NCBI GenBank assembly: GCA_021731085.1
Contig: JAKFYB010000029.1
Span: 1-42,053, forward strand
Length of the DNA stretch: 42,053 nt
Direction of reading: 5' to 3'
Origin: Dehalococcoidia bacterium
Lineage (GTDB): Bacteria > Chloroflexota > Dehalococcoidia > DSTF01 > JACRBR01
In this document: positions 9,024 through 34,292 of the stretch, one piece after another
Layout of the letters: every line of letters begins with the position of its first letter
Position numbering within the stretch: position 1 is the stretch's first letter
The notes under the pieces: generated by a model
What the model was told of the DNA's origin: nothing
What the model saw: the letters and a program-made list of their open reading frames with translations, nothing else
Databases searched by the model: none
Translations under genes and position numbers: made by a program

Positions 9024-9146
9024 AATCTTCGCCTAACTAGAAATCACCACGAACATACCGAACGCTCACAATCCTTGCGTGTCAGGTGATGCCATACCTT
9101 GCGATCGAACAGGACGCATTGATGAGCACTATCTGGGTAGACCTTC

Positions 9147-10511: not shown

Positions 10512-10526
10512 TTACAAAGAGTTTCA

Positions 10527-10577: not shown

Positions 10578-10600
10578 GAGACGTATCAAGGAGAAGCAAC

Positions 10601-10969: not shown

Positions 10970-10982
10970 TGGGAGCCATCGT

Positions 10983-11387: not shown

Positions 11388-11512
11388 GATGAATCCCCCG
11401 GCCGGGAGCCCCTATGCGTCTGTTACTAGTGATGCTTTCCTTCCGTCTGACGGTGCACATGGACAACGTACTCCTGCTCCTCGGTCGAACCGAGCATTCC
11501 GCCAAGCGGACG

Positions 11513-11536
11513 CCTGATTGACGTACTACAATCAGG
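11513..11536. promoter_or_regulatory. 8-bp inverted repeat overlapping a possible -10 element
   Basis: CCTGATTG (11513-11520) and CAATCAGG (11529-11536) form a perfect inverted repeat with an 8-base spacer. TACAAT at 11527-11532 could be a -10 element for the zinc-ribbon gene at 11570, which would put a regulator site on the promoter. No good -35 was found. Confidence 0.4.
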
Positions 11537-11569
11537 GCCACGGACGAGCACACCACAAGGAAGGTCACG

Positions 11570-11821
11570 ATGGATTGTCCCAAGTGTCAGAAGGCAATGG
11601 CGACACGTACGCGCGACGAGATAGAGGTCGACGTGTGCGGACAGTGCGGCGGCGTCTGGCTGGACGGCGGCGAACTCGCAAAGATCCTCGAAGCGGAACG
11701 CGAGCGTTCGGACGCGGAGAAACGCGAGAACTGGCGACTGTACGATCGCGGCCGTGACAACTACGATCCGGCGCCAACCCAGGAGCAGGTGAAGAGCACG
11801 CTTGAGTCGCTGCTCGGATAG
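11570..11821 (+). CDS. Zinc-ribbon protein (zf-TFIIB family)
   Basis: This is an 83-residue soluble protein. Residues 3-40 contain the zinc-ribbon signature of the bacterial zf-TFIIB domain: MDCPKCQKAM, then CGQCGGVWLDGGEL with the family's typical CxxCxGxWLDxGEL end. The rest is charged and helical. Such small proteins are widespread but poorly characterised; metal binding through the four cysteines is the only safe statement. AAGGAAGG at 11550-11557 is a suitable ribosome binding site. It is followed after about 40 bases by an MFS exporter gene in the same direction. Confidence 0.88.
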   Translation: MDCPKCQKAMATRTRDEIEVDVCGQCGGVWLDGGELAKILEAERERSDAEKRENWRLYDRGRDNYDPAPTQEQVKSTLESLLG

Positions 11822-11860
11822 CATCAGGATCGTTTGGGCATGAGCGCGTAAGGATCTCGC

Positions 11861-13354
11861 GTGGCTACAGCAAACCCCGGCGTTCAAGACAAAGGCAAGG
11901 CCGCCAGCATGGCGGTCTTGCTTGTCGCCTGTCTTTCTACGCTCGTGGTTAATGCAAACACTTCGGCCGTCAGCATTCTGCTTCCTGCGATCAGCGATGA
12001 CACGGGCATGTCGCTGCAGACACTGCAATGGGCCGTGACTGGCTATTCGCTCGTCGGTGCGGCCGTCATCGTCACGTCTGGCGCTCTCGGCGATGTTTTT
12101 GGGCGGCGGCTCCTGTTTCTGCTCGGAATCGGGCTGTTCGTCGCCTCATGTGTGTTCATCGCTCTATCCTCATCTGGCGAAGCTGTGATCATCGGCCGGA
12201 TGATTCAGGGTGCGTCCGGGGCGACGATCCTGGCGTCTGGGCTGAGCCTGATCACCGTGGCGTCTTCGGGCTCAGAGCAAACGCGCGCAGTCGCCTTGTG
12301 GGGAGCCGCATCTGCGGTTGGCGCGGCGGTGGGACCACTGATCGGTGGCGTGTTAGTGGACTTCACCGGCTGGCAAGGTCTCTTCTGGCTGGACGCAGGC
12401 ATTGCTCTCGCTCTCGTTCCCGTCACGCTGCGCGGCGTCGAAGAGTCGAACGATCCCACGAGATCACATTCGATCGACTATTTGGGAACCGTCCTCGTGG
12501 CAGCGATACTCGTGCCCATCATTTACGGCATGACAAAAGCGACGGACTGGGGGTGGATCTCACCGCAGACGATCGGCATGTTTGCGCTGTCCGCGGTGGC
12601 GGCCGTCGCGTTCGTTCAGGTTGAGCAGAGGGTCAAGGCACCGCTTGTGGATCTCGCGTTGTTGCGCAACATTACGCTCGTCGGTTCGACGATCGCGATC
12701 CTCATCGGAGCGGGCACGATCAATGCCTTGGGATACCTGCTGAGCATTTACTTCCAGAATCCGGCTGTCCTCGACATGTCACCCCTTCAGGCTGGGGTGG
12801 CGACGCTGCCGATGACAATAGGCCTCGTGGCGGTTACGCCGTTCGTCACCAAGCTCGCCGTGAGCCTTGGAACACGTCAGACGGTATCGCTGGGTTTCAT
12901 CATCAGCGGTGCGGGATTTGTTGCGCTCGCGTTCGTGCAGGAGTCGTGGGAGTACCTGTACTTTGTGATTCCGATTGTCGCCGTTGCCGTCGGGATGGGG
13001 CTCTCCAACGGGCCCGCGACAGCAGCGTCCACAGCATGCGTAGAGCCTCGCCAGATCGGGTCTGCATCGGGAATCTCGAATATGGCCCGGTACGTCGGAT
13101 CGTCCGTGTTCGTCGCACTCGCGGCGTCGGTCTACACGGGCGTCGCGCAGGGTCGAGCTGACGACGGGCGAGAGGTGTCCGATGCGCTTGCGTCAGGACT
13201 CGCGTGGTCCTGCGTGGTGCTAGCGATCACGTGTGGGCTCGGCATCGGCATGGGGTTGCTCGGCCGCTATCGCCAGAGCCAGGCCCGTGGCATCGACATC
13301 GCCGCAGCAGCCGCATCGCACTCTCACACGGTGCCTACGCCTGCGACGAATTGA
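11861..13354 (+). CDS. MFS transporter, DHA2 (14-TM, EmrB/QacA) type
   Basis: This is a 497-residue integral membrane protein with about 14 hydrophobic segments, the length and layout of the drug:H+ antiporter-2 family. The sequence shows the family pattern at the first helices (LVVNANTSAVSILLPAISDD, SLQTLQWAVTGYSLVGAA), motif A (GALGDVFGRRLLF) and motif C-like GAASAVGAAVGPLIGGVLVD. The start is GTG 11861, preceded by AAGGA at a six-base distance. The probable function is export of drugs, lipids or a metabolite; the substrate cannot be told from the sequence. The next gene, a P450, has its own promoter, so co-function with it is only suggested by proximity. Confidence 0.9.
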   Translation: MATANPGVQDKGKAASMAVLLVACLSTLVVNANTSAVSILLPAISDDTGMSLQTLQWAVTGYSLVGAAVIVTSGALGDVFGRRLLFLLGIGLFVASCVFIALSSSGEAVIIGRMIQGASGATILASGLSLITVASSGSEQTRAVALWGAASAVGAAVGPLIGGVLVDFTGWQGLFWLDAGIALALVPVTLRGVEESNDPTRSHSIDYLGTVLVAAILVPIIYGMTKATDWGWISPQTIGMFALSAVAAVAFVQVEQRVKAPLVDLALLRNITLVGSTIAILIGAGTINALGYLLSIYFQNPAVLDMSPLQAGVATLPMTIGLVAVTPFVTKLAVSLGTRQTVSLGFIISGAGFVALAFVQESWEYLYFVIPIVAVAVGMGLSNGPATAASTACVEPRQIGSASGISNMARYVGSSVFVALAASVYTGVAQGRADDGREVSDALASGLAWSCVVLAITCGLGIGMGLLGRYRQSQARGIDIAAAAASHSHTVPTPATN

Positions 13355-20554: not shown

Positions 20555-20578
20555 CTACAGGTTCATCAGGAGATGATG

Positions 20579-22162
20579 ATGCGACGGTTTCTTGTCGCGT
20601 GTTTGGCGTTGACCGCGGTCGTTGCCGCCAGCACGCAATCCTTTGCCGCAGAGCCACAGATGGACGCGGCCGACAACGCGGTCTCGTACATAGACGGCAT
20701 ACAGAATGCCGACGGCGGATTCCCGGGGTTTAGCCCGTCGTCGTCGGCGGGTTCGACGCTGGACGCCGTGTTTGCGCTGTCGGCGGCGGGCGTCGACCCG
20801 AAGTCGGTCACGAACGGCGGTCTGGGGCCGGATGACTATCTTGCAACGCAGGCCCCGGCGTTCAGTGCGTCATCGCCGGGATCGGCAGCGAAACTGGTGC
20901 AGGGTGTGCTGACGATGGACCTTGACGAGACGAACTTCGGGTCGATCAACCCGCTGGCCGTGATGCATTCGAACTACACGCCCGGCACGGGCGCGTACGG
21001 GACGGACACCTTCGCGCAGTCGCAGTACATCCTTGCGCTGGATGCCGCCGGCCTTCCGATACCACCGCTGGCTGTGACGTATTTGGCTTCGCTTCAGCTT
21101 GGCAACGGTTCGTGGGAGTACTGCTGCGGGTTCGGCGGCGACACGAACACGACCGCACTGGCAATTCGAGCACTGACTGCGGGCGGCGTTGTGCCAGCCG
21201 ACCCGGACATCGTCGCCGGCATCGCGTTCCTGATGGCGAACCAGGAGGCCGACGGCGGCTTTCCGTATCTGCTGTCGTTTGGCTCGGAGCCAAACTCAAC
21301 GGGCTTTGTGACACAGGCGCTCGTCGCGGTAGGGCAGAACATCGACGCTGGCGGGCCATGGGACAAAGGCGTCGGCCTGACGCCGCAGGCGTTTCTGCTC
21401 GGGTCACAGGATCCGACAACGGGCGCGCTCGAGTACTTCGGCAACGACGACGCATTCGCGACCTACCAGGGGCTCCCCGGCCTGACGCTGGCCGCGTTCC
21501 CGGAACAGGCCGACGTTGACGGCGACGGTCTGCTGTACGCCGCAGACAACTGCGCGACCGTCGCCAATCCCGCGCAGGCGAACTACGACGCCAACTTCAT
21601 CGACCAGACGCCCCCTTCCACGCAAGACGACCTCACCTGGATCATGTCCGACGGCCGTGGTGACGTGTGCGATCTGGACGCCGACAACGACGGCATCGCG
21701 AATGGCGCTGAGGCCACGGGCTGCAACAGCAGCGGCTCTCTGTCTTCCACCAACCGCGACACCGACGGCGATCGCGTCATCGACGGTGCGGAGTGCGCCA
21801 TCGGCACGAACCCCGGCAGCGCGGCGAGCAAGCCGACGCCGGCACAGTGCGCCGCTCATCTCAGCGTTTCGTTGCCAACAGACACCGACGCTGATGGGAT
21901 TCGCGATGCGACAGAGTTCTGCGGGTACATGAGCTCGCGGACGGACAGCGACACGGACGGTGACGGCGCGGACGATGGCTGCGAAGTCGCGTCGTTCAAT
22001 GTCGACACCGTCGTCAATCCCGCCGACATGGGGCTGCTTGCAACCGAGATGCTGCGCGCCGCTCTACCGTCGGCGAAGCTCGCGAACATGGATGTGAACA
22101 AGGACGGTGTGCTCAACCCTGCGGATCAGGGCATCGTCGCAAGCTTGTTTGTGCCGTGCTGA
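20579..22162 (+). CDS. Secreted alpha/alpha-toroid protein with TSP3/dockerin-like tail, probable cobalamin-binding subunit
   Basis: After a signal peptide (cleavage near SFAAEP, residue 23) come about 280 residues of prenyltransferase/squalene-cyclase-type toroid repeats (AVSYIDGIQNADGGFPGF, SLQLGNGSWEYC, MANQEADGGFPYLLSFG), each followed by a Thr/Ser-x-x-A-x-x-A-L helix. The same fold forms the alpha domain of human intrinsic factor and transcobalamin. Residues about 310-465 hold calcium-binding thrombospondin type 3 DxDxDGxxD repeats, and the last 60 resemble a dockerin pair (VVNPADMGLLA, DVNKDGVLNPADQGIVA). It is the first gene after a cobalamin riboswitch and heads an ECF transporter operon, so I infer capture of corrinoids outside the cell. 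Of three consecutive ATGs, 20579 has the best spacing from AGGAG. A terpene-cyclase role is unlikely, because the protein is secreted and no DxDD motif is seen. Confidence 0.8.
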   Translation: MRRFLVACLALTAVVAASTQSFAAEPQMDAADNAVSYIDGIQNADGGFPGFSPSSSAGSTLDAVFALSAAGVDPKSVTNGGLGPDDYLATQAPAFSASSPGSAAKLVQGVLTMDLDETNFGSINPLAVMHSNYTPGTGAYGTDTFAQSQYILALDAAGLPIPPLAVTYLASLQLGNGSWEYCCGFGGDTNTTALAIRALTAGGVVPADPDIVAGIAFLMANQEADGGFPYLLSFGSEPNSTGFVTQALVAVGQNIDAGGPWDKGVGLTPQAFLLGSQDPTTGALEYFGNDDAFATYQGLPGLTLAAFPEQADVDGDGLLYAADNCATVANPAQANYDANFIDQTPPSTQDDLTWIMSDGRGDVCDLDADNDGIANGAEATGCNSSGSLSSTNRDTDGDRVIDGAECAIGTNPGSAASKPTPAQCAAHLSVSLPTDTDADGIRDATEFCGYMSSRTDSDTDGDGADDGCEVASFNVDTVVNPADMGLLATEMLRAALPSAKLANMDVNKDGVLNPADQGIVASLFVPC

Positions 22163-22175
22163 GGACGGTGAACGC

Positions 22176-23237
22176 GTGAATCAGATCGAACAGCGGCGAG
22201 GATTGTTGCATCCGGCGTGCTGGGCGGCGTGGCTTCTCGCCGGTGTGACGTGCGTGATGCTGACCTCGAACCCACTGTATCTCGCGACGCTCGGGTTGTG
22301 TGCGCTCGCCGTGTATGCGGCGTGGCGCCGGCCCGAGCGTCGGGCGCTAGACACGCTGCTTCTGGTCTCGATCGGTGTGGCGCTGCTCACGCTGCCGCTT
22401 AATCTTGCGACGGGTAGCAGCGGCGCGACAGTGCTCTTCACGCTTCCCGAGATTGTGCTGCCGGGCTGGCTCGCGAGTGTGCGGTTCGGCGGCGACGTCA
22501 CGGCAGAGTCGATGCTGTTCGCAGCGACACGCGCGCTCGGATTGATCGCCATCATCGCGATGGTGTGTGCGTTCAATGCGGGCGTCGATCACTTCCGGCT
22601 GCTGCGGCTTGTCCCGGCGAGCATGGCGCAGCTCGGCATCATCCTCACCGTCGGTGTCGTACTTGTCCCCGAAACGATCGCGCGCGCGGCCGCCCTTCGC
22701 GAAGCGCGTATCGTGCGTGGTCATGGCGGTGGCATGGGCACGTACATCGCACTCTTGCTGCCACTACTCGCCGAAGCGCTGGAACGCTCTGTGCAGCGAG
22801 CGGAGTCGCTCGATGCGCGCGGCTTCGGGCGGCTGGCTGCCCAGCGTGATCCGCGCACAGTCATCGTGGTGGTTGCGTGCGTCGCAGGTGCGGCGATCGC
22901 GTTCTTCGCTTCGTACTACGTGGACCATGGCTCCGCCGCCTTCGCGAGTGGTGCTGGGTTGGCGCTTGTTGCCGTTGTGATCGCATGGCGGCAGGGAAGA
23001 ACAGGTGGTGCCGTACGCATGCGCCGCGCACCGCTGCTGCGGCCGGACATCATCGTCGTGGCCGCGAGTGGTTTCGCCGTCGCGACGTTCATGACGATGC
23101 GACAGTTTGGAGTCGGCGGTCTTTCCTACCTTCCCTTCCCAGAGGTCGTGATCCCTGAGTTCGGCATTGCTGCCGCTGCGGGCATTCTCCTGCTTGCCGC
23201 GCCGACCCTGTTCGCCGGTGGAGGGCGGCGGCTGTGA
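22176..23237 (+). CDS. ECF transporter T component (EcfT/CbiQ-like)
   Basis: The protein has about 353 residues with hydrophobic helices at both ends. It carries the coupling motifs of ECF T proteins that contact the ATPases: REARIVRGHG near residue 175 and ESLDARGFG near residue 210 (the Ala-Arg-Gly signature). It would be the permanent membrane scaffold of the cobalamin ECF importer. The start is GTG 22176 with GAGGAC about nine bases upstream, 13 bases after the toroid gene. The C-terminal region contains extra helices (IIVVAASGFAVATFMTM and later) beyond the usual T component length of about 260 residues, so it is somewhat long. It overlaps the ATPase gene (GTGA, 23234-23237). Confidence 0.87.
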   Translation: MNQIEQRRGLLHPACWAAWLLAGVTCVMLTSNPLYLATLGLCALAVYAAWRRPERRALDTLLLVSIGVALLTLPLNLATGSSGATVLFTLPEIVLPGWLASVRFGGDVTAESMLFAATRALGLIAIIAMVCAFNAGVDHFRLLRLVPASMAQLGIILTVGVVLVPETIARAAALREARIVRGHGGGMGTYIALLLPLLAEALERSVQRAESLDARGFGRLAAQRDPRTVIVVVACVAGAAIAFFASYYVDHGSAAFASGAGLALVAVVIAWRQGRTGGAVRMRRAPLLRPDIIVVAASGFAVATFMTMRQFGVGGLSYLPFPEVVIPEFGIAAAAGILLLAAPTLFAGGGRRL

Positions 23238-24829
23238 GCATGGTGCAAGCCCGTGGGCTAACGTTCTCGTACGGATCATCGCCACGCCCGGCGCTTCGCG
23301 ACGTTTCGTTCGATATTCGCGATGGCGAACTCATCGTCCTCGCAGGACCATCCGGCGGCGGCAAGTCGACGCTACTGCGCTGCATCAACGGCCTCATTCC
23401 GCACTTTCACGGCGGCACATTCGGCGGCGAGGTGCAAATCGCGGGCGTTGATACGCGCACCCGGCAACCGCGCGAGCTGGCATCGCTCGCGGGCATGGTG
23501 TTCCAGGAGCCGGAAGCACAGGTCGTCGCGAACACGGTCGAGGACGAGATCATCTTTGGGCTCGAGAACCTTGGCACTCTGCCAGCGGTCACGCGCAAGC
23601 GACTCGAGGAGATGCTCGACGCGCTCTCGCTCGTGCACCTGCGCAATCGCGAGATGACGACGCTTTCCGGCGGCGAACGCCAGCGCGTCGCAATCGCCGC
23701 CGTGCTGACGATGCAGCCCCGCGTGCTCCTGCTCGACGAGCCGACGTCGCAGCTCGATCCGCAGTCGGCGCAAGATGTGCTCGCGAAGGTGGTGGAGCTA
23801 CGTGACGAGATCGGGTTGACCGTAATGGCGGCGGAGCATCGGCTCGAACGGCTAGCGGCGTACGCGGATCGATTCATGACCGTCGGCCACGGTTGTGGCG
23901 TTCGCATGCTCGAACCGCGGGAGGCGATGAGCGAGGATATCTCGGCCCCGCCGGTCGCGCGCATCGGTGCGGCACTTGGCTGGTCGCCGCTGCCGCTATC
24001 GCTCGCGGAAGCCCGCCCGTTCGTGCGTAGTGCGACGGACTCTGTCAGTCCTGACCGCACGCCAATCTCGTCGGGCGACAACGTCGTGATGGTCCAAGGT
24101 CTGCGCGTGACCCTGGGCGAGACGCGCGTCCTGAACGGGATCGACGTTGAGCTGCAAGCCGGCGAAATCGTTGCGCTGATGGGCAGAAATGGTGCCGGCA
24201 AGACGACGCTCCTCCGCGCGATCGCCGGGCTGATTCCGGGATCACGCGCGAGCATCGCGTTCGCCCGGGAGGCCGAGGGCCGCGAGTTCTACCGGCATGT
24301 CGCTTACGTCGCCCAAGATCCCGCTGCGATGTTGTACGCGTCGACGGTGCGGGCAGAGATCCTGGATGTGCTCAACGGCACGCGGCGTGATGGTTCCGTC
24401 GACGACGCGTTCCATGAGTGGCAGCTGCACGACATCGCGGATGCAAATCCGCGTGACCTGAGCGTAGGCCAGCGGCAGCGCGTCGCACTCGCGGCGATGC
24501 TCGCTGGTGCGCCGGAGCTCATCTTGCTCGACGAGCCGACGCGAGGCATGGATGCGCGCACGGCAGATCTACTCGTCGCGAACCTGCAAATACGTCGGTC
24601 AGCGGGCGCCTGCGTCGTGCTCGCTAGTCACGAAGTCGAGCTTGCCGCCCGCTGTGCTGACCGCGTAATCCTCCTTGCCGATGGCGACGTAATCGACGAC
24701 GGTCCGCCGGCGAAGGTGCTCAGCGGTTCTCTCGCCTTCGGTACGCAGGCCAACAAGCTGTTCGGCGGCGATGTCTTAACTGTGGAAGACGCGCTCGCAT
24801 TCACGCGGTCGGCGGAGTTCGCGCGATGA
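23234..24829 (+). CDS. Fused double ATPase of ECF transporter
   Basis: This is a 531-residue protein made of two complete ABC ATPase domains. The first (residues about 5-235) has Walker A GPSGGGKST near 37, signature LSGGERQRVAIA, and Walker B LLLDEPTSQLDP. The second (about 285-515) has Walker A GRNGAGKTT near 316, signature LSVGQRQRVALA, and Walker B LILLDEPTRGMD. This corresponds to EcfA1 and EcfA2 fused into one chain, a form common for ECF importers in high-GC Gram-positive-type bacteria. It powers the neighbouring T and S components. The start is GTG 23234 (an ATG follows two codons later). The stop overlaps the DUF4430 gene (ATGA). Confidence 0.94.
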   Translation: MSMVQARGLTFSYGSSPRPALRDVSFDIRDGELIVLAGPSGGGKSTLLRCINGLIPHFHGGTFGGEVQIAGVDTRTRQPRELASLAGMVFQEPEAQVVANTVEDEIIFGLENLGTLPAVTRKRLEEMLDALSLVHLRNREMTTLSGGERQRVAIAAVLTMQPRVLLLDEPTSQLDPQSAQDVLAKVVELRDEIGLTVMAAEHRLERLAAYADRFMTVGHGCGVRMLEPREAMSEDISAPPVARIGAALGWSPLPLSLAEARPFVRSATDSVSPDRTPISSGDNVVMVQGLRVTLGETRVLNGIDVELQAGEIVALMGRNGAGKTTLLRAIAGLIPGSRASIAFAREAEGREFYRHVAYVAQDPAAMLYASTVRAEILDVLNGTRRDGSVDDAFHEWQLHDIADANPRDLSVGQRQRVALAAMLAGAPELILLDEPTRGMDARTADLLVANLQIRRSAGACVVLASHEVELAARCADRVILLADGDVIDDGPPAKVLSGSLAFGTQANKLFGGDVLTVEDALAFTRSAEFAR

Positions 24830-25845
24830 GGACAGTCGCGTTCCTGCTCGCAGTCTTATCCTTCGCCGTTGTCGCCTTCGCATTGCCTTCCTCGTCCCTC
24901 GCAGGCTCCGGTGGCGGTTGTAGCGGCACTGCGGGAAGTGACGTGCATCGAGCCGGGCTCGTCGTCTCGTTCGGTGGCCAGCAGCCAACGCAGCGATTCT
25001 GCGTGGAGTTCACCGAGGAGTCGATCTCCGGCATCGAACTGCTCCAACGTTCCGGGTTGAGTCTCGTCACACAGATTGAAGGCGGTCTTGGTGCGGGCGT
25101 ATGCGCTATCGATGGCATTGGCAGCGATGATCCGACCAACTGCTTCAAGTACTCGACGACGCCGCCTTATCGATACTGGGTGTACTTTCGCTGGACGGGC
25201 GCCGATTCGAACGGCGCCTGGCAGTTCTCGAACGTCGGTGCCTCGACGCGCGAGATCCATGACGGCGACATCGACGGTTGGTCGTGGGGCAACGGAGCGA
25301 ACGCACCGCCGGAATCGCCCGACGGCGTACTCGATCTGCCGACCCCGACGCCACTTCCGCCCACACTGACTCCGACGCCAGTTCAGGCGACCAACACGCC
25401 ACGCCCGACGGCTACACGCGCAACGACAATTACACCGGTTCCGGCTGATACAGCCGCGCCAAACGCGACCCTGTCACCAGCGACTCCAGAGGTGGTAGCG
25501 ACTCCGACCGTTTCATCAGGGTCCGATGGCATACCGCCTCCGCCCTCGCCCGCCGACGCCGAGGTGGCCGGCGCGCAGGCGACGCCACGGCCAGCGTTGA
25601 CCGTGACGGGAGCGAGCAGCGTGGCATCGGTCACACTCACGCCTGCCGCCACGCCGACGGCGCCCAGCGGGGTCATCGTCGTCGACCCAACGCAAGCACG
25701 CGACAACGCCGCGACTGCCGAGCGAGCCGACGGTGACAGCGGGAGCGGCGGCAGCAGCGCCCTGATCGGATTTGCGCTCGTCGCCGCCGTGATAACAGGA
25801 GGCGCTGGCGTCATCCTGTATCGGAGGCGTAGTGGCGATGCTTGA
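24826..25845 (+). CDS. Membrane-anchored DUF4430 (transcobalamin beta-domain-like) protein
   Basis: A signal peptide (cleavage near LAGSGG, residue 28) is followed by a single DUF4430-type domain (residues about 40-165). It shows AGLVVSFGGQQPTQRFCVEF, then SGIELLQRSG, GVCAIDGIGSDDPTNCFKY and YRYWVYFRWTGADSNGAWQFSNVGAS, the order seen in the C-terminal beta domain of transcobalamin-like proteins. A stalk of about 130 Pro/Thr/Ala-rich residues follows, then a transmembrane helix (about 305-328) and a short basic tail (YRRRSGD). The domain would thus be displayed above the membrane near the ECF transporter. Being encoded between the ECF ATPase and S component in a B12-riboswitch operon, it most likely helps capture cobalamin, possibly as partner of the toroid protein at 20579. 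Confidence 0.87.
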   Translation: MRTVAFLLAVLSFAVVAFALPSSSLAGSGGGCSGTAGSDVHRAGLVVSFGGQQPTQRFCVEFTEESISGIELLQRSGLSLVTQIEGGLGAGVCAIDGIGSDDPTNCFKYSTTPPYRYWVYFRWTGADSNGAWQFSNVGASTREIHDGDIDGWSWGNGANAPPESPDGVLDLPTPTPLPPTLTPTPVQATNTPRPTATRATTITPVPADTAAPNATLSPATPEVVATPTVSSGSDGIPPPPSPADAEVAGAQATPRPALTVTGASSVASVTLTPAATPTAPSGVIVVDPTQARDNAATAERADGDSGSGGSSALIGFALVAAVITGGAGVILYRRRSGDA

Positions 25846-26662
25846 GGACGCACGTGCGCTGCCAATCCAACGGCGCACGCGACCTGTTCTGACGCTGTCG
25901 GCGCTCACGCTCACGGTGGCGAGCGGTGTCGGCGTGGCCGCGTTCTTGTATCCGTTCATCTTGTCGTCCGCGCCCCGCGCAGAAAGTCAGGCGCACGCCG
26001 GCGATGCGCCGCTGATGTTCGGCATTCTCGTCGCGCTGGCGGCAATGCTCTTTCTCGTCGAGATGTCATCCGGGGGGGTGAACGCGAAGGTCGCATCGGC
26101 GCTCGCCGTCCTGACCGTCGCCGCCGCAGCCTTGCGCGTGCCCGTCCTGCCCGCTGGTGGTAGCGCCTTCTTCTTTCTCATCATGCTCGGTGGATACGTC
26201 TTCGGGCCGCGGTTCGGGTTCCTGCTTGGTGCGCTGGCTCTGTTTGTGTCGTCGTTCATCAGCGGTGGCTTCGGTCCGTGGGTGCCGTACCAGATGTTCG
26301 CGTCCGGGTGGCTCGGACTGACGGCCGGGTGGCTCGGAGCCTTGCGTCCGCAGCTCCACCGTGCGCCATTGGTCGAGGTCGGTGTCCTAACCGTATTCGG
26401 CGTCGCGTGGGGCTTCCTGTTCGGCGCGATCATGAACCTCTGGTTCTGGCCATATGTGGCTTCTGGAGAATCCGTGTCGTGGGTTCCCGGTCTTGGTCTT
26501 GCCGAAACGATGCGCCGTTACTGGGCCTTCTACCTGCTGACCTCTGCTGCGTGGGACTTCTGGCGTGGCATCGCCAACGTCGTGCTCATTGCGCTGGCGG
26601 CACGGCCCGTGCTGGCGATCCTCGTGAGGTACCGGGAGCGATTCACTGTGCGCTGGGCGTAG
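25832..26662 (+). CDS. ECF transporter S component, probable cobalamin specificity (CbrT-like)
   Basis: This is a 276-residue membrane protein with six or more helices; the family-like part includes GGSAFFFLIMLGGYVFGPRFGFLLGALALFVSSFISGGFGPWVPYQMFASGWLGLTAGWLG, the glycine-rich middle typical of ECF substrate-binding subunits that are CbrT-like. It begins 14 bases before the DUF4430 gene ends (GTG 25832; ATG 25838 is an alternative), so it is translationally coupled and is the last gene of the riboswitch-controlled operon. The T and A components are encoded upstream. Cobalamin or a precursor is inferred as the substrate from the riboswitch and not from any residue. The N-terminal extension of about 30 residues is hydrophilic. 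Confidence 0.85.
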   Translation: MAMLEDARALPIQRRTRPVLTLSALTLTVASGVGVAAFLYPFILSSAPRAESQAHAGDAPLMFGILVALAAMLFLVEMSSGGVNAKVASALAVLTVAAAALRVPVLPAGGSAFFFLIMLGGYVFGPRFGFLLGALALFVSSFISGGFGPWVPYQMFASGWLGLTAGWLGALRPQLHRAPLVEVGVLTVFGVAWGFLFGAIMNLWFWPYVASGESVSWVPGLGLAETMRRYWAFYLLTSAAWDFWRGIANVVLIALAARPVLAILVRYRERFTVRWA

Positions 26663-26826: not shown

Positions 26827-28638
26827 ATGCTGCGGAAGCAGGGCAAGAGCAGATTGGTGGTAGCAGCACTGGCCGCGGCCGTTGCGCTGGGATTTGGCGC
26901 GATGACATGGAGTAGCCCCACGGTCGAGGCCGCGCCGCAGAACATAACGGGAGGATACCTGGATTGGGGCGTGAAGGCCTCGTTCAGAAACTACATCTTG
27001 TTCGGCCCAGCGGCGGGTTCGATCACGCTCTCGCAGGGAGCCCTGCAGAACGGCGATGGTACCTTCCGATTCCCCGCTGTTGCGACAGGTTCGTACGACA
27101 GCGACACCGACACCACAACATCGTCATACTCAGGCAAGGTGTTCTTTACGGGGCACTCCGGCGCGCTCGAGATGGAAGTCACGGACATTCGGGTACAGAT
27201 CACCGGCACGACAGGCCTGCTTATCGCCGATGTCGTCAGCAGGGGTCTGGCACCGCCTGGGCTCCCAGTGGCGTACCCCGATGTTGAATTTGCAGCGTTG
27301 GATCTGACGAGTGTGCCGCCCAACGAGACGGGAACATCGGTCTCGTGGACAAACATGCCCTCGATACTAACCGCCGCTGGTGTACCTGCCTTTGCGGACT
27401 TCTACGCGGAGGGCACGGCTCTCGACCCGGTGTCACCGACGCTCCAACTCGAGCCAGAACCAATCGGTGACCTGACGTGGAAGATCTCGCAGCACGCCTG
27501 GACGAGCAGCAGCCTTTCGCCCTCGCACGCAACAGGCGCCCCGGCCGCGAAGGACGTGGTCAACGGGTTCGTCTGGCCGACGTTCGACGTGATCAACTAC
27601 GACCGCATCACGGGCGCGACGGAACTCTCGTTTGATGGATCGATAACCCTCGGCAACGTGATGCAGGGCGGCTACCGCATCATGTTCGACAACCCACGGA
27701 TCATCATCGATGAGGACAACGACGGCGAGATTCACGCCGATGTCTCGTACTGCGTCTCGGCCGCAGCCTGCCTCAATCCATGGGTTGGGCCAGCGCTCGA
27801 CGTCACGCTGACTACGTTCATCGCGAATCCGGGCGGAATCACAGACAACGGCAGCCACGTCTCGTGGACGTTCACGCCGGAGTACTCCTCCGTCGGCAAC
27901 CAGTTCGACCAGGAGTTGATCGACACGCTGGACGCCAGCCTTCGGGGTCACTTCCGCGCGACGGGCGGTGCATCAGACCCGAACAAGCCCCCGGCGCCGA
28001 TCTCTGTCCAGTTTGATTACGTCTGTCCGTCGGCCCAGAACTCGGACGCCAACTTCATCGAGAATAGCCCCTTCGTAAACGACGATGGCACGATGGTTCG
28101 TTCCGACACGGCCGGTAACGCCTGCGATGGCGACGACGACAACGACGGTCTCAACGACCTCATTGAGCTTGGGACTCCGTGCGCTTCGGCCACGGGCGCG
28201 ACCAACCCGGACGTCCGCGATTCCGACGGCGATCGCGTGCTGGACGGCATCGAGTGCACGATGAACTTCGACCCGGCAAGCGCGCTGAGCAAGCCAACCG
28301 TCGCACAGTGCGTCACTCAGTCAGGCGCGCCGATAGGCATGGACACGGACGGCGACAAGATTCGCGACTACATTGAGGTCTGCTACTACGGCACCGGCCC
28401 GACTGTCGTGGACACGGATGGCGACGCTGGGGCAACCGGCGCGAAGGATGGATGTGAAGTGGCTTCGCTGAATCCTGATCGGATCGTGAACGTCGCCGAC
28501 ATGGGTATGCTTGCGTCGGCGATCGGCAACCCCACGTTCCGGATCGCAAACGTCGACATCAACAAGGACGGTGCGTGGAACCCCGCCGATCAAGGGATCC
28601 TGGCGGGCTTCATCGCGCCAGCCGGACAGTGTCCATAA
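26827..28638 (+). CDS. Secreted HtaA-domain hemophore with TSP3/dockerin-like tail
   Basis: A signal peptide (cleavage near VEAAPQ, residue 36) precedes an HtaA heme-binding domain at about 40-200 (ITGGYLDWGVKASFRNYILFG, GDGTFRFPA, FTGHSGALEMEVTDIRVQI). Tyr56 and His110 occupy the positions of the Tyr/His pair needed for heme binding in Corynebacterium HtaA. A second HtaA-like domain (about 210-400, LTWKISQHAWTSSSL, LGNVMQGGYRIMFDNPRIII) lacks the Gly-His of the first. Then come calcium-binding DxDGDxxxD repeats (about 420-540) and a dockerin-like pair (RIVNVADMGMLAS, DINKDGAWNPADQGILAG). There is no membrane anchor, so it is probably released or held by its tail. GAGGAGGAG precedes ATG 26827. 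It stands beside heme oxygenase and HmuTUV genes and is followed by a strong hairpin. Confidence 0.88.
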   Translation: MLRKQGKSRLVVAALAAAVALGFGAMTWSSPTVEAAPQNITGGYLDWGVKASFRNYILFGPAAGSITLSQGALQNGDGTFRFPAVATGSYDSDTDTTTSSYSGKVFFTGHSGALEMEVTDIRVQITGTTGLLIADVVSRGLAPPGLPVAYPDVEFAALDLTSVPPNETGTSVSWTNMPSILTAAGVPAFADFYAEGTALDPVSPTLQLEPEPIGDLTWKISQHAWTSSSLSPSHATGAPAAKDVVNGFVWPTFDVINYDRITGATELSFDGSITLGNVMQGGYRIMFDNPRIIIDEDNDGEIHADVSYCVSAAACLNPWVGPALDVTLTTFIANPGGITDNGSHVSWTFTPEYSSVGNQFDQELIDTLDASLRGHFRATGGASDPNKPPAPISVQFDYVCPSAQNSDANFIENSPFVNDDGTMVRSDTAGNACDGDDDNDGLNDLIELGTPCASATGATNPDVRDSDGDRVLDGIECTMNFDPASALSKPTVAQCVTQSGAPIGMDTDGDKIRDYIEVCYYGTGPTVVDTDGDAGATGAKDGCEVASLNPDRIVNVADMGMLASAIGNPTFRIANVDINKDGAWNPADQGILAGFIAPAGQCP

Positions 28639-28761: not shown

Positions 28762-29088
28762 TTGGCCAGCAATGAACCGAAGCAGGGTGCCGTCTTCAGT
28801 GATGATGTAGTGACTGCCGTCATGCGGCACATGAACGTTGACCACTCGGAAGATTCGACGCTGATTTGCCGCTCACTCGGCGGCCAGCCTGATGCCACCG
28901 CGGCGCACATGACGGGCATAGACGAGCACGGGATCGACTTCGGGGCAACGGTCGGCGGCGGGGAAGTAGCTCTCCGCCTGCCATGGAGCCAAACACTCTC
29001 AGAGCGAGCACAGGTTCGTGTCGAAGTTGTGCGGATGTACCAGGAGGCGTGCGCCGCGCTCGGCATCGAACCTCGGGCGGCAGAGTAA
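28762..29088 (+). CDS. DUF2470-domain protein (heme utilisation-associated)
   Basis: This 108-residue protein is one DUF2470 domain: VMRHMNVDHSEDSTLICRSLGG, then DATAAHMTGIDEHGIDFGA, VALRLPWSQTL and a final helix VRVEVVRMYQEACAALG. This domain forms the C-terminal part of HugZ/HutZ heme-degrading proteins, where its histidine-rich start contacts heme, and it also exists alone near heme loci. The start must be TTG 28762, because an in-frame stop lies at 28744. GAGGTG precedes it at a rather short distance. It converges with the heme oxygenase gene, ending 24 bases from it, within the heme island. A role in heme handling is inferred from domain and context. Confidence 0.87.
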   Translation: MASNEPKQGAVFSDDVVTAVMRHMNVDHSEDSTLICRSLGGQPDATAAHMTGIDEHGIDFGATVGGGEVALRLPWSQTLSERAQVRVEVVRMYQEACAALGIEPRAAE

Positions 29089-29112: not shown

Positions 29113-29760
29113 CTACAGTCCCTGCAGGAGCCGCGTGTTCAGCTCGTACGCCAGCAGGACTTCGTCGATGATCCGCCGACGCTCTTCGGCATCCCACGGC
29201 GCGGCATCGAGACGGGCGCGATACTGGTCCTTGAACGCCGTAGCGTCAGCAATGCCGTCGAATGTGTAGAACTTCGCGCCGTTGCCGTTGAAGTTGTAGG
29301 TCCGGCGGATGATCTCACCAATGTGTTGGCCGCCCGACAGGTCTCCCATGTAGCGCACGTAGTGGTGCGCGACGAAGCCGCCCGCCCGCGTCAGGCATGC
29401 CTCTCTGATGCGATCACAGTAGACCGTGGTCGCGCTTGTCGGCGTGATCTTGTTCGCCCACTGTGCGCCGAGAAGATATGCCAAATCCGCCTCAAGCGCC
29501 GGCGTACGGCGAAGGTCGGCGGAGATGAACGTTCCGGCGACAGGGTCGGACGCCATCGCATCGCCCGCGTGCTCCAGCTCGCGATAGACGAAGTAGTGCT
29601 GGGCGACGAGCCGGGCATACGCCTCGAGGGCTGACTTCCCGGCGAGCAGATCGCGCACGAACGCCGACGATTGCGCGTCGCGGTGGGCCGTCATGCTTGC
29701 GGCGCGAATGTCTGCCGAGAAGGCGGTGTGGGCGGCGGCTTGTTCCGTCGTCGCGGCCAT
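29113..29760 (-). CDS. hmuO: Heme oxygenase (biliverdin-producing)
   Basis: This is a 215-residue all-helical protein with the heme oxygenase hallmarks: proximal histidine His26 in SMTAHRDAQ, and the distal-helix GDLSGGQ at 139-145, followed by YNFNGNGAKFYTF, as in Corynebacterium HmuO and the eukaryotic HO-1 family. It cleaves heme to biliverdin, CO and ferrous iron using an external reductant. No membrane tail is present, so it is cytoplasmic. It is divergent from the operon encoding the surface protein and HmuTUV, and its promoter region (a possible -35 TTGTGC and -10 TAAGAT on the minus strand) overlaps the palindrome at 29845-29858, suggesting shared control. AGGAG lies about nine bases before ATG 29760. 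Confidence 0.94.
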   Translation of the reverse strand: MAATTEQAAAHTAFSADIRAASMTAHRDAQSSAFVRDLLAGKSALEAYARLVAQHYFVYRELEHAGDAMASDPVAGTFISADLRRTPALEADLAYLLGAQWANKITPTSATTVYCDRIREACLTRAGGFVAHHYVRYMGDLSGGQHIGEIIRRTYNFNGNGAKFYTFDGIADATAFKDQYRARLDAAPWDAEERRRIIDEVLLAYELNTRLLQGL

Positions 29761-29825: not shown

Positions 29826-29858
29826 CTTAGTGTAAGGATGCTTATTAGCACAAGCTAA
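29826..29858. promoter_or_regulatory. Shared operator-like element between heme oxygenase and heme uptake operon
   Basis: CTTAG (29826-29830), 13 bases, then ATTAGCAC. TTAGC (29845-29849) and GCTAA (29854-29858) form an inverted repeat with a 4-base spacer. The whole arrangement repeats that before the HtaA gene (26765-26796) with the same internal spacing. It lies in the divergent gap and could control both directions. Confidence 0.5.
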
Positions 29859-29907: not shown

Positions 29908-31356
29908 GTGAACGTGTCCCTGCGAATGCCGCTTCTCAGCCTGCTCGCCATCCTGTTCCTCGCAGCCTTCGTTGCCGTTGTTCCGTCAATCAGAACGGCG
30001 TTTGCAGAGAGCGGTTCAGCTTCGGATGGGACGAGGACGCTGACCGTGTCCGACATCTCGGGCCTGAATGTCGATGGGGACACGGTGACGGTCAGCGGCT
30101 CCGGCTATGACATGGAGAAGGGCGTCTACGTCGCGTTCTGCATCGTGCCCGTGCCCGGCCAGCGGCCGACGCCCTGCGGCAACGTGGACATCAGCGGCGG
30201 CAGCACTTCGGCTTACTGGATTTCCTCAAACGCTCCTCCGTATGGCGATGGCCTGGCGCTCCCGTACGGATCCGGTGGCACGTTCTCGGTGGAGCTGTCG
30301 CTCGGTGCGACGTTCAACAATCCACCGAACGGGTCAGTCGATTGCCGCGTCGTATCGTGCGCGGTCGTGACGTTCAGTGACCACACGCGCCTGTCCGATC
30401 GCTCGCAAGACGTGATCGTGCCGGTGACCTTTGGTGGAGAAGAGCCCACCGCCACGAACACGCCACCGACGCCGCCGACCTCGACGCAGACGCCGGTCCC
30501 TGGCGCCTCATCGACGCCGGTACCGCAATCGACGCAGGCGCCAGCTACAGCAGGGCCATCTGCCGCCGCGAGCGCGACGGTGGTCGCCGTCGTCCCAACG
30601 TCACCATCAGGTGCTTCGCCCACAGGCGTAGGTACCAGCCCACGGCCGACGTTGTCGTCTACCCAGAAGACGGCAGTACCGCAGGGAACACCGCGTCCAG
30701 GCGCGAGCGTCGTCCCCACCGCCACGGGCCTCCCGGCGGTTACCACCAAGATCTCGAACAACGGACGCACGGCAACCGCTGGCGAGCTCGTCCTCACATC
30801 TTCGAAGGTTCGCCTCGAAGGTGTTGGCGGTGAGGTCAAGATCGAGGGGAAGGGCTACAACGAGTCGAAGGGCGTCTATGTCGCGCTTTGTGCGGTACCG
30901 GAGAAGGGCAAGGCCCCGAAGGTCTGCGCCGCGGGCGACGGTGTTTCGGCGTGGATTTCGTCGAACCCGCCGGACTACGGCATCGACCTGGCGGAGCCTT
31001 ACGAAGACGGCGGCAGCTTCGGAGTCGAACTCGCGTTGAAGCCGGTGATCGATACTAAAACGGACTGCCGCGTCGTTGCATGCGCGATCATCACGCGCAA
31101 TGACGACACCGCTGCCGAGGATCGTTCACAAGACGTCATCCTGCCCGTGAGCTTCGGCACGAATGCGAGCAGCGGAAGCACGCCAAAGAGTGGCGTGCAG
31201 GGCGCCGTGGCCTCCCCGACTGATGGCGGCGGTGGTGGTGGCGCGAATCCCATCGTCTGGGTCGTGCTCAGTGTCATCGCGTTGGGAGCGCTCGGTGGCG
31301 GCGCATATGGCATCTACCTCTACCAGCGCGGTCGCGTGCAGAGTGCGGGTATCTGA
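29908..31356 (+). CDS. Membrane-anchored surface protein with two neocarzinostatin-like modules
   Basis: A signal peptide (cleavage near TAFAES, residue 35) is followed by a module at about 45-175, a Pro/Thr stalk (about 178-280), a second copy of the module (about 290-418), a Gly-rich linker and a C-terminal transmembrane helix (about 446-470) with a short basic tail. Each module reads V-x-G-x-G-Y...KGVYVA(F/L)C...C...(Y)WISSN(A/P)P(P/D)YG...(E)PY..GG(T/S)F.VEL...DCR(V)V(S/A)CA(V/I)(I/V)T...DRSQDVI(V/L)PV(S/T)F. The two cysteine pairs and the closing DC...C...VSF resemble the neocarzinostatin/actinoxanthin immunoglobulin-like fold. Its gene heads the HmuTUV operon, so it probably receives heme from HtaA or the medium; direct heme binding is not shown. 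The start is GTG 29908 (GTG 29914 or ATG 29926 are possible). Confidence 0.82.
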   Translation: MNVSLRMPLLSLLAILFLAAFVAVVPSIRTAFAESGSASDGTRTLTVSDISGLNVDGDTVTVSGSGYDMEKGVYVAFCIVPVPGQRPTPCGNVDISGGSTSAYWISSNAPPYGDGLALPYGSGGTFSVELSLGATFNNPPNGSVDCRVVSCAVVTFSDHTRLSDRSQDVIVPVTFGGEEPTATNTPPTPPTSTQTPVPGASSTPVPQSTQAPATAGPSAAASATVVAVVPTSPSGASPTGVGTSPRPTLSSTQKTAVPQGTPRPGASVVPTATGLPAVTTKISNNGRTATAGELVLTSSKVRLEGVGGEVKIEGKGYNESKGVYVALCAVPEKGKAPKVCAAGDGVSAWISSNPPDYGIDLAEPYEDGGSFGVELALKPVIDTKTDCRVVACAIITRNDDTAAEDRSQDVILPVSFGTNASSGSTPKSGVQGAVASPTDGGGGGGANPIVWVVLSVIALGALGGGAYGIYLYQRGRVQSAGI

Positions 31357-32375
31357 TGTCCAGCATGAACACTCGACGAGCCGCGCAGCTATTCGCGATA
31401 ACAAGCCTCGTCGTCGTGGTCCTGAGCGCATGCAGCACCGCGACCAGCGGTAGCGATGTCGATCAGGATCCGCAGCCGACAATATCCGTCGTCGATGACA
31501 CAACCGGCGCAACGCTGCCCGTGACCGTCACGTCATCGGATGGCCGCGAAGTGACCATCACCGACACGAGCCGCATCGTTCCGCTGTGGGGCAGCCTCAC
31601 GGAGATTGCGTTCGGACTTGGCCTCAGTGAACAGGTGGTAGCGCGCGACGTATCGTCAACACTCGAGGAAGCACAAGACCTTCCCGTCGTTACGCGCGCG
31701 CACGACGTTTCGGCGGAGTCCGTGTTGGCCCTTCGACCGACCGTCGTCCTTGCGTCAGAGAACACCGGCCCGTCAAGCGCCCTCGCCCAGATCCGCAACG
31801 TCGGAATTCCCGTCATCACCTTCAAGGAGCCCGGCAGCATCGAAGACATCATCCCGCGCGTGCACGAGATGGCCGCCGCGCTGGGTGTGCCGGAACGGGG
31901 CAACGTGCTGGCAGCCCAGATCGAGCAAGAGATCGCCGCCGTGCGTGAAGGCGTCCCCCCAGGCGAATCCCCCAGGGTCGCCTTTCTCTACATGCGCGGA
32001 CAGGTCGGCGTCTACCTGATCGCAGGACCGGGTTCCGGTGCGGATTCGATGATCGCTGCAGCCGGCGGCATCGACGCAGGCACGGCGATGGGCCTCGACA
32101 ATCCCTTCACGCCGCTCACGAGCGAAGCGCTCGTGCAGTCTGCGCCGGACGTCATTCTCATGACGAGCACCGGCCTTGAGTCCGTCGGCGGGATCGAGGG
32201 CCTGCTGGAGATCCCGGGTGTCGGGCAGACACCCGCCGGCGCGAATCGACGGGTCATCACAGTCGAGGACGGGCTGCTATACAGCTTCGGGCCGCGCACG
32301 CCGGTCGCGCTCGAACTCCTCATCCAGAAACTCTACGAGCAGCCCGCGGCTTCCGCCGAACCGGTCATAGAATAG
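31356..32375 (+). CDS. hmuT: Heme ABC transporter substrate-binding lipoprotein (HmuT-like)
   Basis: A lipoprotein signal with VVLSAC (Cys26) anchors a 339-residue type III (BtuF/FhuD/HmuT) binding protein. Its two lobes are visible in SRIVPLWGSLTEIAFGLGLSEQVVARD and in FLYMRGQVGVYLIAGPGSGADSMIAAAGG, with LLEIPGVGQTPAGANRRVITVEDGLLYSFGPRTPVALE near the end. This pattern is that of heme-binding HmuT homologues of actinobacteria. The gene begins at the last base of the preceding stop (TGATG) and is followed five bases after its stop by the permease. Heme rather than B12 is inferred from the neighbours (HtaA, heme oxygenase); the fold alone would also allow corrinoids or siderophores. Confidence 0.9.
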   Translation: MSSMNTRRAAQLFAITSLVVVVLSACSTATSGSDVDQDPQPTISVVDDTTGATLPVTVTSSDGREVTITDTSRIVPLWGSLTEIAFGLGLSEQVVARDVSSTLEEAQDLPVVTRAHDVSAESVLALRPTVVLASENTGPSSALAQIRNVGIPVITFKEPGSIEDIIPRVHEMAAALGVPERGNVLAAQIEQEIAAVREGVPPGESPRVAFLYMRGQVGVYLIAGPGSGADSMIAAAGGIDAGTAMGLDNPFTPLTSEALVQSAPDVILMTSTGLESVGGIEGLLEIPGVGQTPAGANRRVITVEDGLLYSFGPRTPVALELLIQKLYEQPAASAEPVIE

Positions 32376-32379
32376 AAAC

Positions 32380-33474
32380 ATGACGACACCCGAGACCGTG
32401 GTCGGCGAGCAGGCGATGCGTCGCGCGCCGCTGCGCCGTGGTTCGCTTACTCCGCCTGTCCTGCTTGGCGGGCTGAGCGTTGCGCTGATTATCGCCGTGA
32501 TTGTCGCCGGCGCATCGGGCGCGTACCCCATCTCGCCGGGCGAAGTCATCGGCTCGCTGCTGCACGTGATCGGCATCGACGTCGGCACACGCGCGGACAC
32601 AGTGGGCGAAGATGTGCTCTGGGAGATCCGCTTCCCACGGGTCGTGCTCGCCGTCCTCGTCGGCGCATCCCTGGGGTGTGCGGGCGCCGCGATGCAGGGC
32701 ACATTCTCGAATCCGCTGGCCGAGCCCGGCATCATCGGCGTGTCGGCTGGCGCGGTCGTGGGCGCTGTCGCGCAGATCGTCATGGGGTTCACGTTCGCTG
32801 GTTCAACATGGAGCATCACGCTAGCGGCCTTCATCGGTGGCCTCGTCACGGTGATGCTCGTGTACCTGGGATCACGTTCGAACGGGAAGACGGAAATCGT
32901 CACACTGGTTCTGACGGGCGTCGCCGCGAACGCCTTTGCGGGAGCCCTCATCGGCCTGTTGATCTTCTTCTCCGATGACGCCCAACTGCGATCGATCACG
33001 TTCTGGACGCTCGGCAGCATGGCGCAGGCGACGTGGGCGAAGGTTGCCGTGGTGATGCCGGTGGCCCTCCTTGGCGTCGCTCTCGCGTGCGTGCATGCGT
33101 CCAAGCTCGACCTGCTGGCGTTGGGTGAGCGCCCGGCGCGCCACCTCGGCGTAGACGTCGAGCGCCTTCGCGTGACGATGCTCGTGATCGTCGCCGTGCT
33201 CACCGCGGCAGCAGTCGCGGTGTCTGGCATCATCCTGTTCGTGGGCCTCGTCATCCCACACCTCATCCGCATGGTCTCCGGCCCCCGCCATCAACTGCTG
33301 CTGCCGGCGTCGGCGCTTGCGGGTGCGGTGATTCTCGTCGTCGCCGACACGGTGGCGCGCACGATCGCAGCGCCGTCGGAACTGCCGCTTGGTGTGCTTA
33401 CAGCGCTCATCGGTGCGCCGTTCTTCCTCTGGCAACTGCGTCGGACGCGCGCGCAGCAAGGCGGCTGGGCATGA
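32380..33474 (+). CDS. hmuU: Heme ABC transporter permease (HmuU/BtuC family)
   Basis: This is a 364-residue membrane protein of the FecCD family with about ten helices. Family motifs are clear: EIRFPRVVLAVLVGASLGCAGAAMQGTFSNPLAEPGIIGVSAGA, then FWTLGSMAQATW, GILFVGLVIPHLIRMVSGPRHQLLLP in the form GIILFVGLVIPHL, and the final DTVARTIAAPSELPLGVLTALIGAPFFLWQL. It forms the membrane channel for the HmuT cargo. The N terminus has about 25 extra residues that are hydrophilic. Its stop overlaps the ATPase start (ATGA, 33471-33474). Confidence 0.95.
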   Translation: MTTPETVVGEQAMRRAPLRRGSLTPPVLLGGLSVALIIAVIVAGASGAYPISPGEVIGSLLHVIGIDVGTRADTVGEDVLWEIRFPRVVLAVLVGASLGCAGAAMQGTFSNPLAEPGIIGVSAGAVVGAVAQIVMGFTFAGSTWSITLAAFIGGLVTVMLVYLGSRSNGKTEIVTLVLTGVAANAFAGALIGLLIFFSDDAQLRSITFWTLGSMAQATWAKVAVVMPVALLGVALACVHASKLDLLALGERPARHLGVDVERLRVTMLVIVAVLTAAAVAVSGIILFVGLVIPHLIRMVSGPRHQLLLPASALAGAVILVVADTVARTIAAPSELPLGVLTALIGAPFFLWQLRRTRAQQGGWA

Positions 33475-34292
33475 AATGGGCGCGTTCTACGCTGCAGGTG
33501 CCACAGCCGGTGGCTATGGGCGATGTGCTGCTCCAAGCCCGCGGAGTGTCCGTAAGCTACGGCCCGTTTCCCATCCTGCACGACGTCGATCTCGTAGCGC
33601 GGGCAGGCGAAGTCGTTGCGCTTGTCGGCCCGAATGGATCTGGAAAGTCGACGCTGCTCGCCGTTCTCGCCGGCGACCTCGAACCAGCACAGGGATCCGT
33701 CGACGTGTTCAGCGAACGCATCACTGAGTGGTCAAATGCTGAGTTGGCATTGCGCCGCAGCGTGTTGCCACAGCATGTCGCCGTCAGCTTTCCCTTCCTC
33801 GTGGACGACGTCGTTCGTATGGGGCGCGCGCCGTGGCTGAACACAGACGCCGAAGCGCAGGATGATCTGGTGGTCGATGAATCTCTTCGGCAGACCGAGA
33901 TCGATGCTCTTCGTGGACGACAGTTTCCGTCGCTCTCCGGCGGCGAACGCGCGCGCGTCGCTCTCAGCCGTGTCCTCGCGCAGCGAACGCAGCTTCTCCT
34001 GCTCGATGAGCCCACCGCAGCGCTCGATGTGCACCATCAGGAAATGGTGCTGCGACTCGTCAAAGAACGTGCGTCTCAGGGCGCCGGCGCCGTTGTCGTC
34101 CTGCACGACCTGAGTGTGGCGTCTTCGCACGCCGACCGCGTCGCCGTGCTCTCGCAAGGGCGCATCATTGCCGACGGTCCGCCACGCGATGTCTTCGCAC
34201 CTGCACTGTTGAGTGAGGTGTATCGGCACGAGATCGAGGTCATAGCGCACCCTCGTACGGGTGAGCCGATCATCGTGCCCAAGCGGGACTAA
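33471..34292 (+). CDS. hmuV: Heme ABC transporter ATPase (HmuV)
   Basis: This is a 273-residue ABC ATPase of the FecE/BtuD type. Walker A is GPNGSGKST (near residue 54), the Q-loop lies at LPQHVAVSFPF, the signature is LSGGERARVALSRVLA, Walker B LLLLDEPTAALD and the H-loop VVLHDLSVA. The FPFLVDDVVRMGRAPW segment is characteristic of HmuV heme ATPases. It starts inside the permease stop (ATG 33471), which gives about 17 extra residues compared with an internal GTG or ATG at 33516. It is the last gene of the surface protein-HmuTUV operon. Confidence 0.95.
   Translation: MKWARSTLQVPQPVAMGDVLLQARGVSVSYGPFPILHDVDLVARAGEVVALVGPNGSGKSTLLAVLAGDLEPAQGSVDVFSERITEWSNAELALRRSVLPQHVAVSFPFLVDDVVRMGRAPWLNTDAEAQDDLVVDESLRQTEIDALRGRQFPSLSGGERARVALSRVLAQRTQLLLLDEPTAALDVHHQEMVLRLVKERASQGAGAVVVLHDLSVASSHADRVAVLSQGRIIADGPPRDVFAPALLSEVYRHEIEVIAHPRTGEPIIVPKRD

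Follow-up and report, generated by a model that had tools for sequence, protein, structure and literature searches.

Most of what is known of the neocarzinostatin (NCS) fold concerns its role in carrying enediyne antibiotics. In corynebacteria, heme has been described to travel from HtaA to HtaB and from there to HmuT (PMC4926363), and the relay formed by HtaB and other CR-domain proteins links HtaA with HmuT through a protein bound to the membrane (PMC4926363, PMC12494546). A comparable arrangement is the NEAT relay (IsdC/IsdA), in which extracellular modules serve a Gram-positive heme path; according to the same source, a tyrosine serves as heme ligand in CR as well as NEAT domains (PMC12494546). 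The DNA analysed here (hereafter the window, 42,053 nucleotides of the contig JAKFYB010000029.1 from a Dehalococcoidia bacterium) encodes at 29908-31356 a protein with two NCS-like modules that would occupy the same place in the pathway as the HtaB/CR relay. Unlike that relay, the protein is devoid of an HtaA/CR domain, as 29908-31353 gives no PF04213 match up to E 1 in Pfam. It also differs from the NEAT relay in that its modules carry NCS-type Cys pairs and are hosted by Actinomycetota and Chloroflexota, a NEAT domain giving no Pfam match up to E 1 in the window protein, while the tyrosine ligation described for NEAT is proposed here as well. We consider that the NCS-like protein is probably a membrane-anchored heme-handling subunit of an importer of the HtaA-HmuTUV type, acting between HtaA and HmuT, and the comparisons below suggest that the NCS fold, known mainly for antibiotic carriage, also takes part in heme uptake. 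Among the matches listed from the open-licence PMC literature, no title connects heme uptake with a domain of the neocarzinostatin kind.

The protein is encoded within the following set of genes.

26827..28638, + strand: HtaA protein, 603 aa, with two HtaA stretches (PF04213, E 1.6e-49)
28762..29088, + strand: small DUF2470 protein (HugZ N-terminal-like; Pfam/NCBIfam)
29113..29760, - strand: heme oxygenase, divergent from the NCS gene (Pfam)
29908..31356, + strand: NCS-fold heme-locus protein, GTG start, 482 aa
31354..31358, + strand: translational coupling by TGATG, overlap of the NCS stop (TGA 31354-31356) and the hmuT start (ATG from 31356)
31356..32375, + strand: hmuT, heme-binding lipoprotein (Pfam, CgHmuT alignment)
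32380..33474, + strand: hmuU permease (FecCD; Pfam/NCBIfam)
33471..34292, + strand: hmuV ATPase (NCBIfam heme ABC transporter ATP-binding, 307.9 against a cut-off of 261)

In a phmmer alignment, the HmuT residues that correspond to His141, Tyr240 and Arg242 of CgHmuT, described as its heme-site residues (PMC4926363), are all kept; the CgHmuT numbering was assigned by counting, and the His-Tyr spacing of 99 agrees with the published numbers. Since HmuV exceeds the heme-specific cut-off and HmuT keeps its heme-site residues, the locus is a heme importer by its parts, and the NCS-like protein belongs to the known HtaA-HmuTUV kind of system, as a variant with an NCS-fold subunit. The HtaA protein (26827-28638) additionally displays a weak C-terminal match to dockerin type I, and a similar tail is found in the secreted protein at 20573.

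The NCS-like protein itself is organized as follows.

29908..30006, + strand: signal peptide region, aa 1-33 (by eye from the sequence)
30019..30441, + strand: NCS-like module 1, aa 38-178 (module alignment, predicted fold)
30241..30243, + strand: codon of Tyr112, candidate ligand-contact residue (kept in 12/12 hmuT-adjacent modules)
30442..30756, + strand: Pro/Thr/Ser-rich linker separating modules 1 and 2, aa 179-283 (sequence)
30757..31170, + strand: NCS-like module 2, aa 284-421 (alignment with module 1)
30976-30978, + strand: codon of the module 2 tyrosine, aa 357, equivalent of Tyr112 (module alignment)
31249..31323, + strand: C-terminal membrane helix, about aa 448-472 (by eye from the sequence)

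A short Ser/Gly-rich segment lies between module 2 and the membrane helix, which is followed by a ten-residue tail. An earlier note, made from the sequence alone, had described a duplicated module with two Cys pairs sitting on a Pro/Thr stalk above a membrane helix and coupled to hmuT by TGATG. The duplication is real, as the two modules share 48% identity in a pairwise alignment with both Cys pairs (C78/C90 and C146/C151 in module 1) in register, and the coupling is equally evident, with the stop codon overlapping the hmuT ATG at 31356. The Pro/Thr stretch and the helix exist too, but the stretch separates the two modules instead of lying under both, and it lifts module 1 alone.

To what extent these modules are related to the NCS family can be judged at the sequence and at the structure level. 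The match of the 482-aa protein to PF00960 (E 0.014, 15.8 bits) lies below the Pfam cut-off of 25, and that to the enediyne antibiotic chromoprotein family NF040680 (E 8.9e-8, 32.1 bits) lies below the NCBIfam cut-off of 86, a value also missed by 8/8 relatives scanned. As a single sequence, the protein matches only one PDB entry below 1e-3, namely ThiX of C. glutamicum (7QHM chain M, E 3.5e-6). A profile was then derived from 30 module stretches, 20 of them at E<1e-11 and 19 retained in the alignment, leaving out L057 (partial) and the weaker stretches of L049, L050, L055, L056 and L058; in the PDB this 19-row profile recovers ThiX (E 3e-11), the NCS mutant 2cbt (0.0041) and macromomycin (0.024), with further NCS, kedarcidin and C-1027 chains matched up to E 0.25. 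The AlphaFold2 model of module 1, built on a seven-row alignment, is of modest confidence (pLDDT 64, pTM 0.63). When the PDB is searched with it by Foldseek, NCS-family chains take the first 12 places (best E 1.8e-4), and they also make up the ten best rows in VIA-align (Z 8.8-7.1, rmsd 2.6-3.1, 92-105 residues aligned), unrelated rows starting at Z 7.0 and going down. A chance Ig-like likeness was considered for module 1 and discarded, because NCS-family chains top both structure rankings above other Ig-like chains. The model of module 2 is poorer (pLDDT 56, pTM 0.48); macromomycin is its best Foldseek match and NCS chains tie with other Ig-like chains by VIA, so the assignment of module 2 rests on its 48% identity to module 1 together with Foldseek. 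The structural likeness to neocarzinostatin, which had been put forward earlier as a check, is thus found in the predicted fold of module 1 by Foldseek and VIA, and weakly in the sequence.

All four cysteines are kept in 12/12 hmuT-adjacent modules of the alignment, and the second pair (DCxxxxC) falls in register with those of macromomycin and NCS in the profile alignment. As far as predicted structure can tell, the modules are remote fold-relatives, not members, of the enediyne chromoprotein family. With the chromoproteins of PF00960 (NCS, macromomycin, C-1027, kedarcidin) they have the predicted fold and both Cys pairs in common, and the ligand cleft of that family would be expected at the same place. 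In the modules, unlike in those proteins, the first Cys pair is followed by an extended loop that contains SNxPxY, and the window protein is duplicated, membrane-anchored and located in a heme locus. Among the 19 window ORFs scanned there is no enediyne gene, an enediyne polyketide synthase included, and one P450 was found at 13609. The closest solved sequence, ThiX, shares both Cys pairs and the DHT motif with the module and is without the SNxPxY tyrosine in the profile alignment. ThiX has been described as a lipid-anchored subunit of the cytochrome bcc-aa3 respiratory supercomplex with an unresolved soluble domain (PMC8795186), and the match suggests that this soluble part is an NCS-fold domain. 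A neocarzinostatin-like domain has also been reported in a sortase-dependent candidate protein of Actinoplanes (PMC13251363).

Conservation points to specific residues within the modules. The positions kept in 12/12 hmuT-adjacent modules include the four cysteines, Trp104, Tyr112 (in SNxPxY), Pro119 and Asp158, among others. Tyr112 is present in 12/12 of these modules versus 2/7 other modules, while His159 of the DHT motif is found in 9/9 first or single modules, 0/3 second modules and 6/7 others; accordingly, module 2 of the window is without the DHT histidine of module 1. Against 2cbt, the tyrosine column falls on NCS position 52, in a weak HMM alignment (domain i-E 1.8), and this position has been described, together with Trp39, at the ligand cleft (PMC5952040, PMC3754942). 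Taking together the conservation of Tyr112, its alignment to position 52 and the tyrosine ligation in CR and NEAT domains, Tyr112/357 becomes the first candidate residue, and we infer from the sequences that this conserved tyrosine (aa 112 and 357) would be the likeliest candidate iron ligand. Across the nine hmuT-adjacent proteins, first or single modules have a mean identity of 54%, and they are 37% identical to the seven other modules. In a tree in which most other forks are weak, the three second modules group together (97/98) apart from first modules, and the duplication therefore predates the split of the three two-module genes.

The distribution of the modules was examined in samples of genomes, in which scoring was confined, within each genome, to the top candidates from a permissive initial pass (for instance 11 in the actinobacterial module search), and counts may therefore be low. 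Within the class, a search with a two-module alignment matches 3/288 genomes, which are that of the window, G282 and G122, and a PF04213 search finds HtaA in the same 3/288. The three carriers belong to three different families, and the single additional genome searched from the window's genus (G001, 72% complete) has neither the module nor HtaA. In both G282 (Dehalococcoidia SJ813, L018/L020) and G122 (Dehalococcoidia SJ354, L019/L022) the two-module gene is divergent from a heme oxygenase and directly 5' of hmuT-hmuU-hmuV. The heme locus of G122 also carries a DUF2470 domain fused to a larger anchored protein (L019 15673-17211, - strand). A peptide-pattern scan of the genome contigs, which employed a single pattern, gave at least three loci, and the plasmids searched contain no match to the NCS-like protein. 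PF00960 was also tried as a heme marker and rejected: it matches 8/294 class genomes at E<=1e-3, that of the window (G000) not among them, and in 10 loci (~3 kb each) of the 8 positive genomes none of the heme-uptake genes of the window finds a match, which indicates that PF00960 in general has no specific tie to heme.

Beyond the class, Actinomycetota provide further cases. In Acidimicrobiales SKW114 (G294, L021), a divergent HtaA gene is accompanied by a single module with an anchor and by hmuTUV. Module matches were obtained in 11/346 actinobacterial genomes at E<=1e-3 and in 9/346 below 1e-5, the two weak ones being G413 and G537. Seven of the nine strong genomes (G294, G430, G458, G500, G521, G548, G580) have hmuTUV in the stretch fetched, while in G403 and G634 (short contig) the strong match is not beside hmuTUV. 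HtaA is present in 21/346 genomes and in 7/9 strong module genomes, an overlap with a hypergeometric p of 3.5e-8 (3.0e-7 with all 11) by a statistic that ignores relatedness. A heme oxygenase adjoins in the window and in L020, L022, L049, L050, L052 and L053. The two components can also be found apart. In G458 and G548 the module lies 5' of hmuTUV and no HtaA was detected in the PF04213 search, so the module does not need HtaA. Conversely, five HtaA-HmuTUV loci (L063-L067, HtaA pairs in large actinobacterial genomes) give no module match, showing that the module is not essential to HtaA-HmuTUV systems, and G403 carries two NCS genes away from hmu (L054) as well as an hmu locus without NCS (L067). 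The module is hence an optional part of HtaA/HmuTUV systems, and where present the subfamily is mostly found at such loci. The association with heme loci outside the genome of origin, which the earlier note had set as another check, holds both in the Chloroflexota class sample and in Actinomycetota. In L054, the two NCS-module genes are adjacent (8170-12100) and the second ends, by eye, in a LAxTG-like sorting signal.

The linkage with hmuT is maintained at the level of gene junctions. The NCS gene is immediately 5' of hmuT in nine loci, the window and eight further ones, from two phyla. In seven of them (window, L021, L022, L049, L051, L052, L053) the stop codon runs into the hmuT start, with hmuT starts in the nine loci placed by eye from the lipoprotein signal that follows, and L050 has a 1-bp gap. 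In L020, no stop codon separates the NCS gene from hmuT and the two share a single reading frame, either a lost stop or a sequencing error of the MAG being possible. The recurrence of a one- or two-module protein 5' of hmuT in eight further loci of two phyla is more than chance. In the same DNA as L020 (L018 10760-13678), the NCS-HmuT junction weakly matches NF058595 (20.9 bits against a cut-off of 37), the 'lipo-invert putative C-terminal anchoring domain' of NCBIfam. Matches to HtaA and to the NCS-like module are moreover found on one ORF in L053, L055, L057 and L058; the order in L053 is HtaA-NCS, and L055 combines two strong modules, two HtaA domains and a helix. Weak matches in L068 (1.8e-5) and L069 (2.8e-5) point to the HtaA-NCS fusion architecture as well, and in L052 a cell-wall-binding protein bears a second NCS module.

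A membrane-proximal relay, as suggested in the earlier note, is the most economical reading of a membrane-anchored protein made together with HmuT, and that suggestion is partly supported. The NCS scaffold has reportedly been engineered into hybrid oxidation catalysts with metalloporphyrins, which makes a metal-cofactor ligand in the NCS fold plausible. Under the relay model, heme would be captured by secreted or surface HtaA, handed to the outer module 1, passed from there to module 2 near the membrane and delivered to the lipoprotein HmuT, which would feed HmuUV. The heme site would be the cleft that in NCS accommodates the enediyne chromophore; the conserved Tyr 112/357 would most likely ligate the iron, possibly assisted, in module 1 alone, by His159 of DHT. 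The window protein would in this way fill the job of HtaB in corynebacteria or of IsdC in staphylococci. Counting against this model are the modest confidence of the predicted structures, the weak alignment of the tyrosine to position 52, the loss of the DHT histidine from second modules, the loci L063-L067, the strong matches of G403 and G634 located away from hmuTUV, the place of ThiX in a respiratory supercomplex and the lack of a convincing iron box in the window, whereas the boxes upstream in L053 and L055 described below count in its favour.

The main rival is that the modules make no contact with heme and act as docking or spacer domains, which keep HtaA close to HmuT or hold HmuT in position. 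Spacer functions are frequent among Ig-like folds, and the DHT histidine is lost in second modules (0/3); the module is missing from the HtaA-HmuTUV loci L063-L067, and HtaA-NCS fusions fit a docking role too. Nevertheless, G458 and G548 combine NCS and hmuTUV with no detected HtaA to dock, and the SNxPxY tyrosine tracks hmuT-adjacent modules (12/12 versus 2/7 others), a pattern that speaks against a mere spacer, and we consider docking unlikely. Still less probable is that the modules bind another tetrapyrrole or hydrophobic ligand (biliverdin, a corrinoid or a product of chlorophyll degradation, for example) that HmuTUV would carry as well. PDB titles record testosterone-bound NCS mutants, which indicates that the scaffold accepts varied ligands, and the locus is directly preceded by a set of ECF genes of the vitamin type; however, the three CgHmuT heme-site residues are kept in HmuT, HmuV exceeds its heme-specific NCBIfam cut-off and a heme oxygenase adjoins in the window and in the six relatives listed above.

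Lastly, the protein might serve as a receptor for a heme-carrying protein instead of heme, in the way that HbpA recognises hemoglobin. The long linker that pushes module 1 outward and the further NCS module on a cell-wall-binding protein (L052) would suit such a function, but the membrane anchor, the coupling of the gene to hmuT and the presence of only one module in several relatives make it very improbable. Transfer of heme from HtaA to HmuT through the modules is retained as the preferred reading. The wider proposal that the NCS fold is a natural heme-binding module, which would add a beta-sandwich relay with a cleft tyrosine to the NEAT and CR classes, in Actinomycetota and some Chloroflexota, is offered as a tentative possibility. 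If this is true, enediyne carriers and ThiX would be other branches of one envelope ligand-carrier superfamily, and antibiotic carriers may derive from heme-handling surface proteins, or the reverse. The repeated overlap with hmuT and the fusion with HtaA give the NCS fold a candidate physiological role in heme import. They suggest a candidate for the missing relay step in heme systems without HtaB, with a residue named for mutation. Such a role would also bear on the origin of antibiotic carriers and offer a starting point for working out what ThiX does in the respiratory supercomplex.

The upstream sequences were scored for iron boxes with the DtxR/IdeR consensus. DtxR/IdeR-like boxes are found upstream in L053 (17/19) and L055 (16/19) and, weaker, in L021 and L050 (13/19). 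None was found upstream in L049, L051 and L052, and there is no convincing one upstream in the window, where the best scores 11/19 and 96/300 shuffles are as good. The stretch that separates the NCS gene of the window from the divergent heme oxygenase gene holds, at 29845-29858, the palindrome TTAGCACAAGCTAA (TTAGC-N4-GCTAA), which is the only TTAGN6CTAA in the window. Directly upstream of the heme locus, 20573-26662 encodes an ECF transporter set that consists of a secreted protein carrying TSP3 and looking like an alpha/alpha-toroid, a membrane protein resembling EcfT, a double ATPase, an anchored protein rich in Pro and Thr, and an S component. The whole set looks like a vitamin uptake system of transcobalamin-like type.
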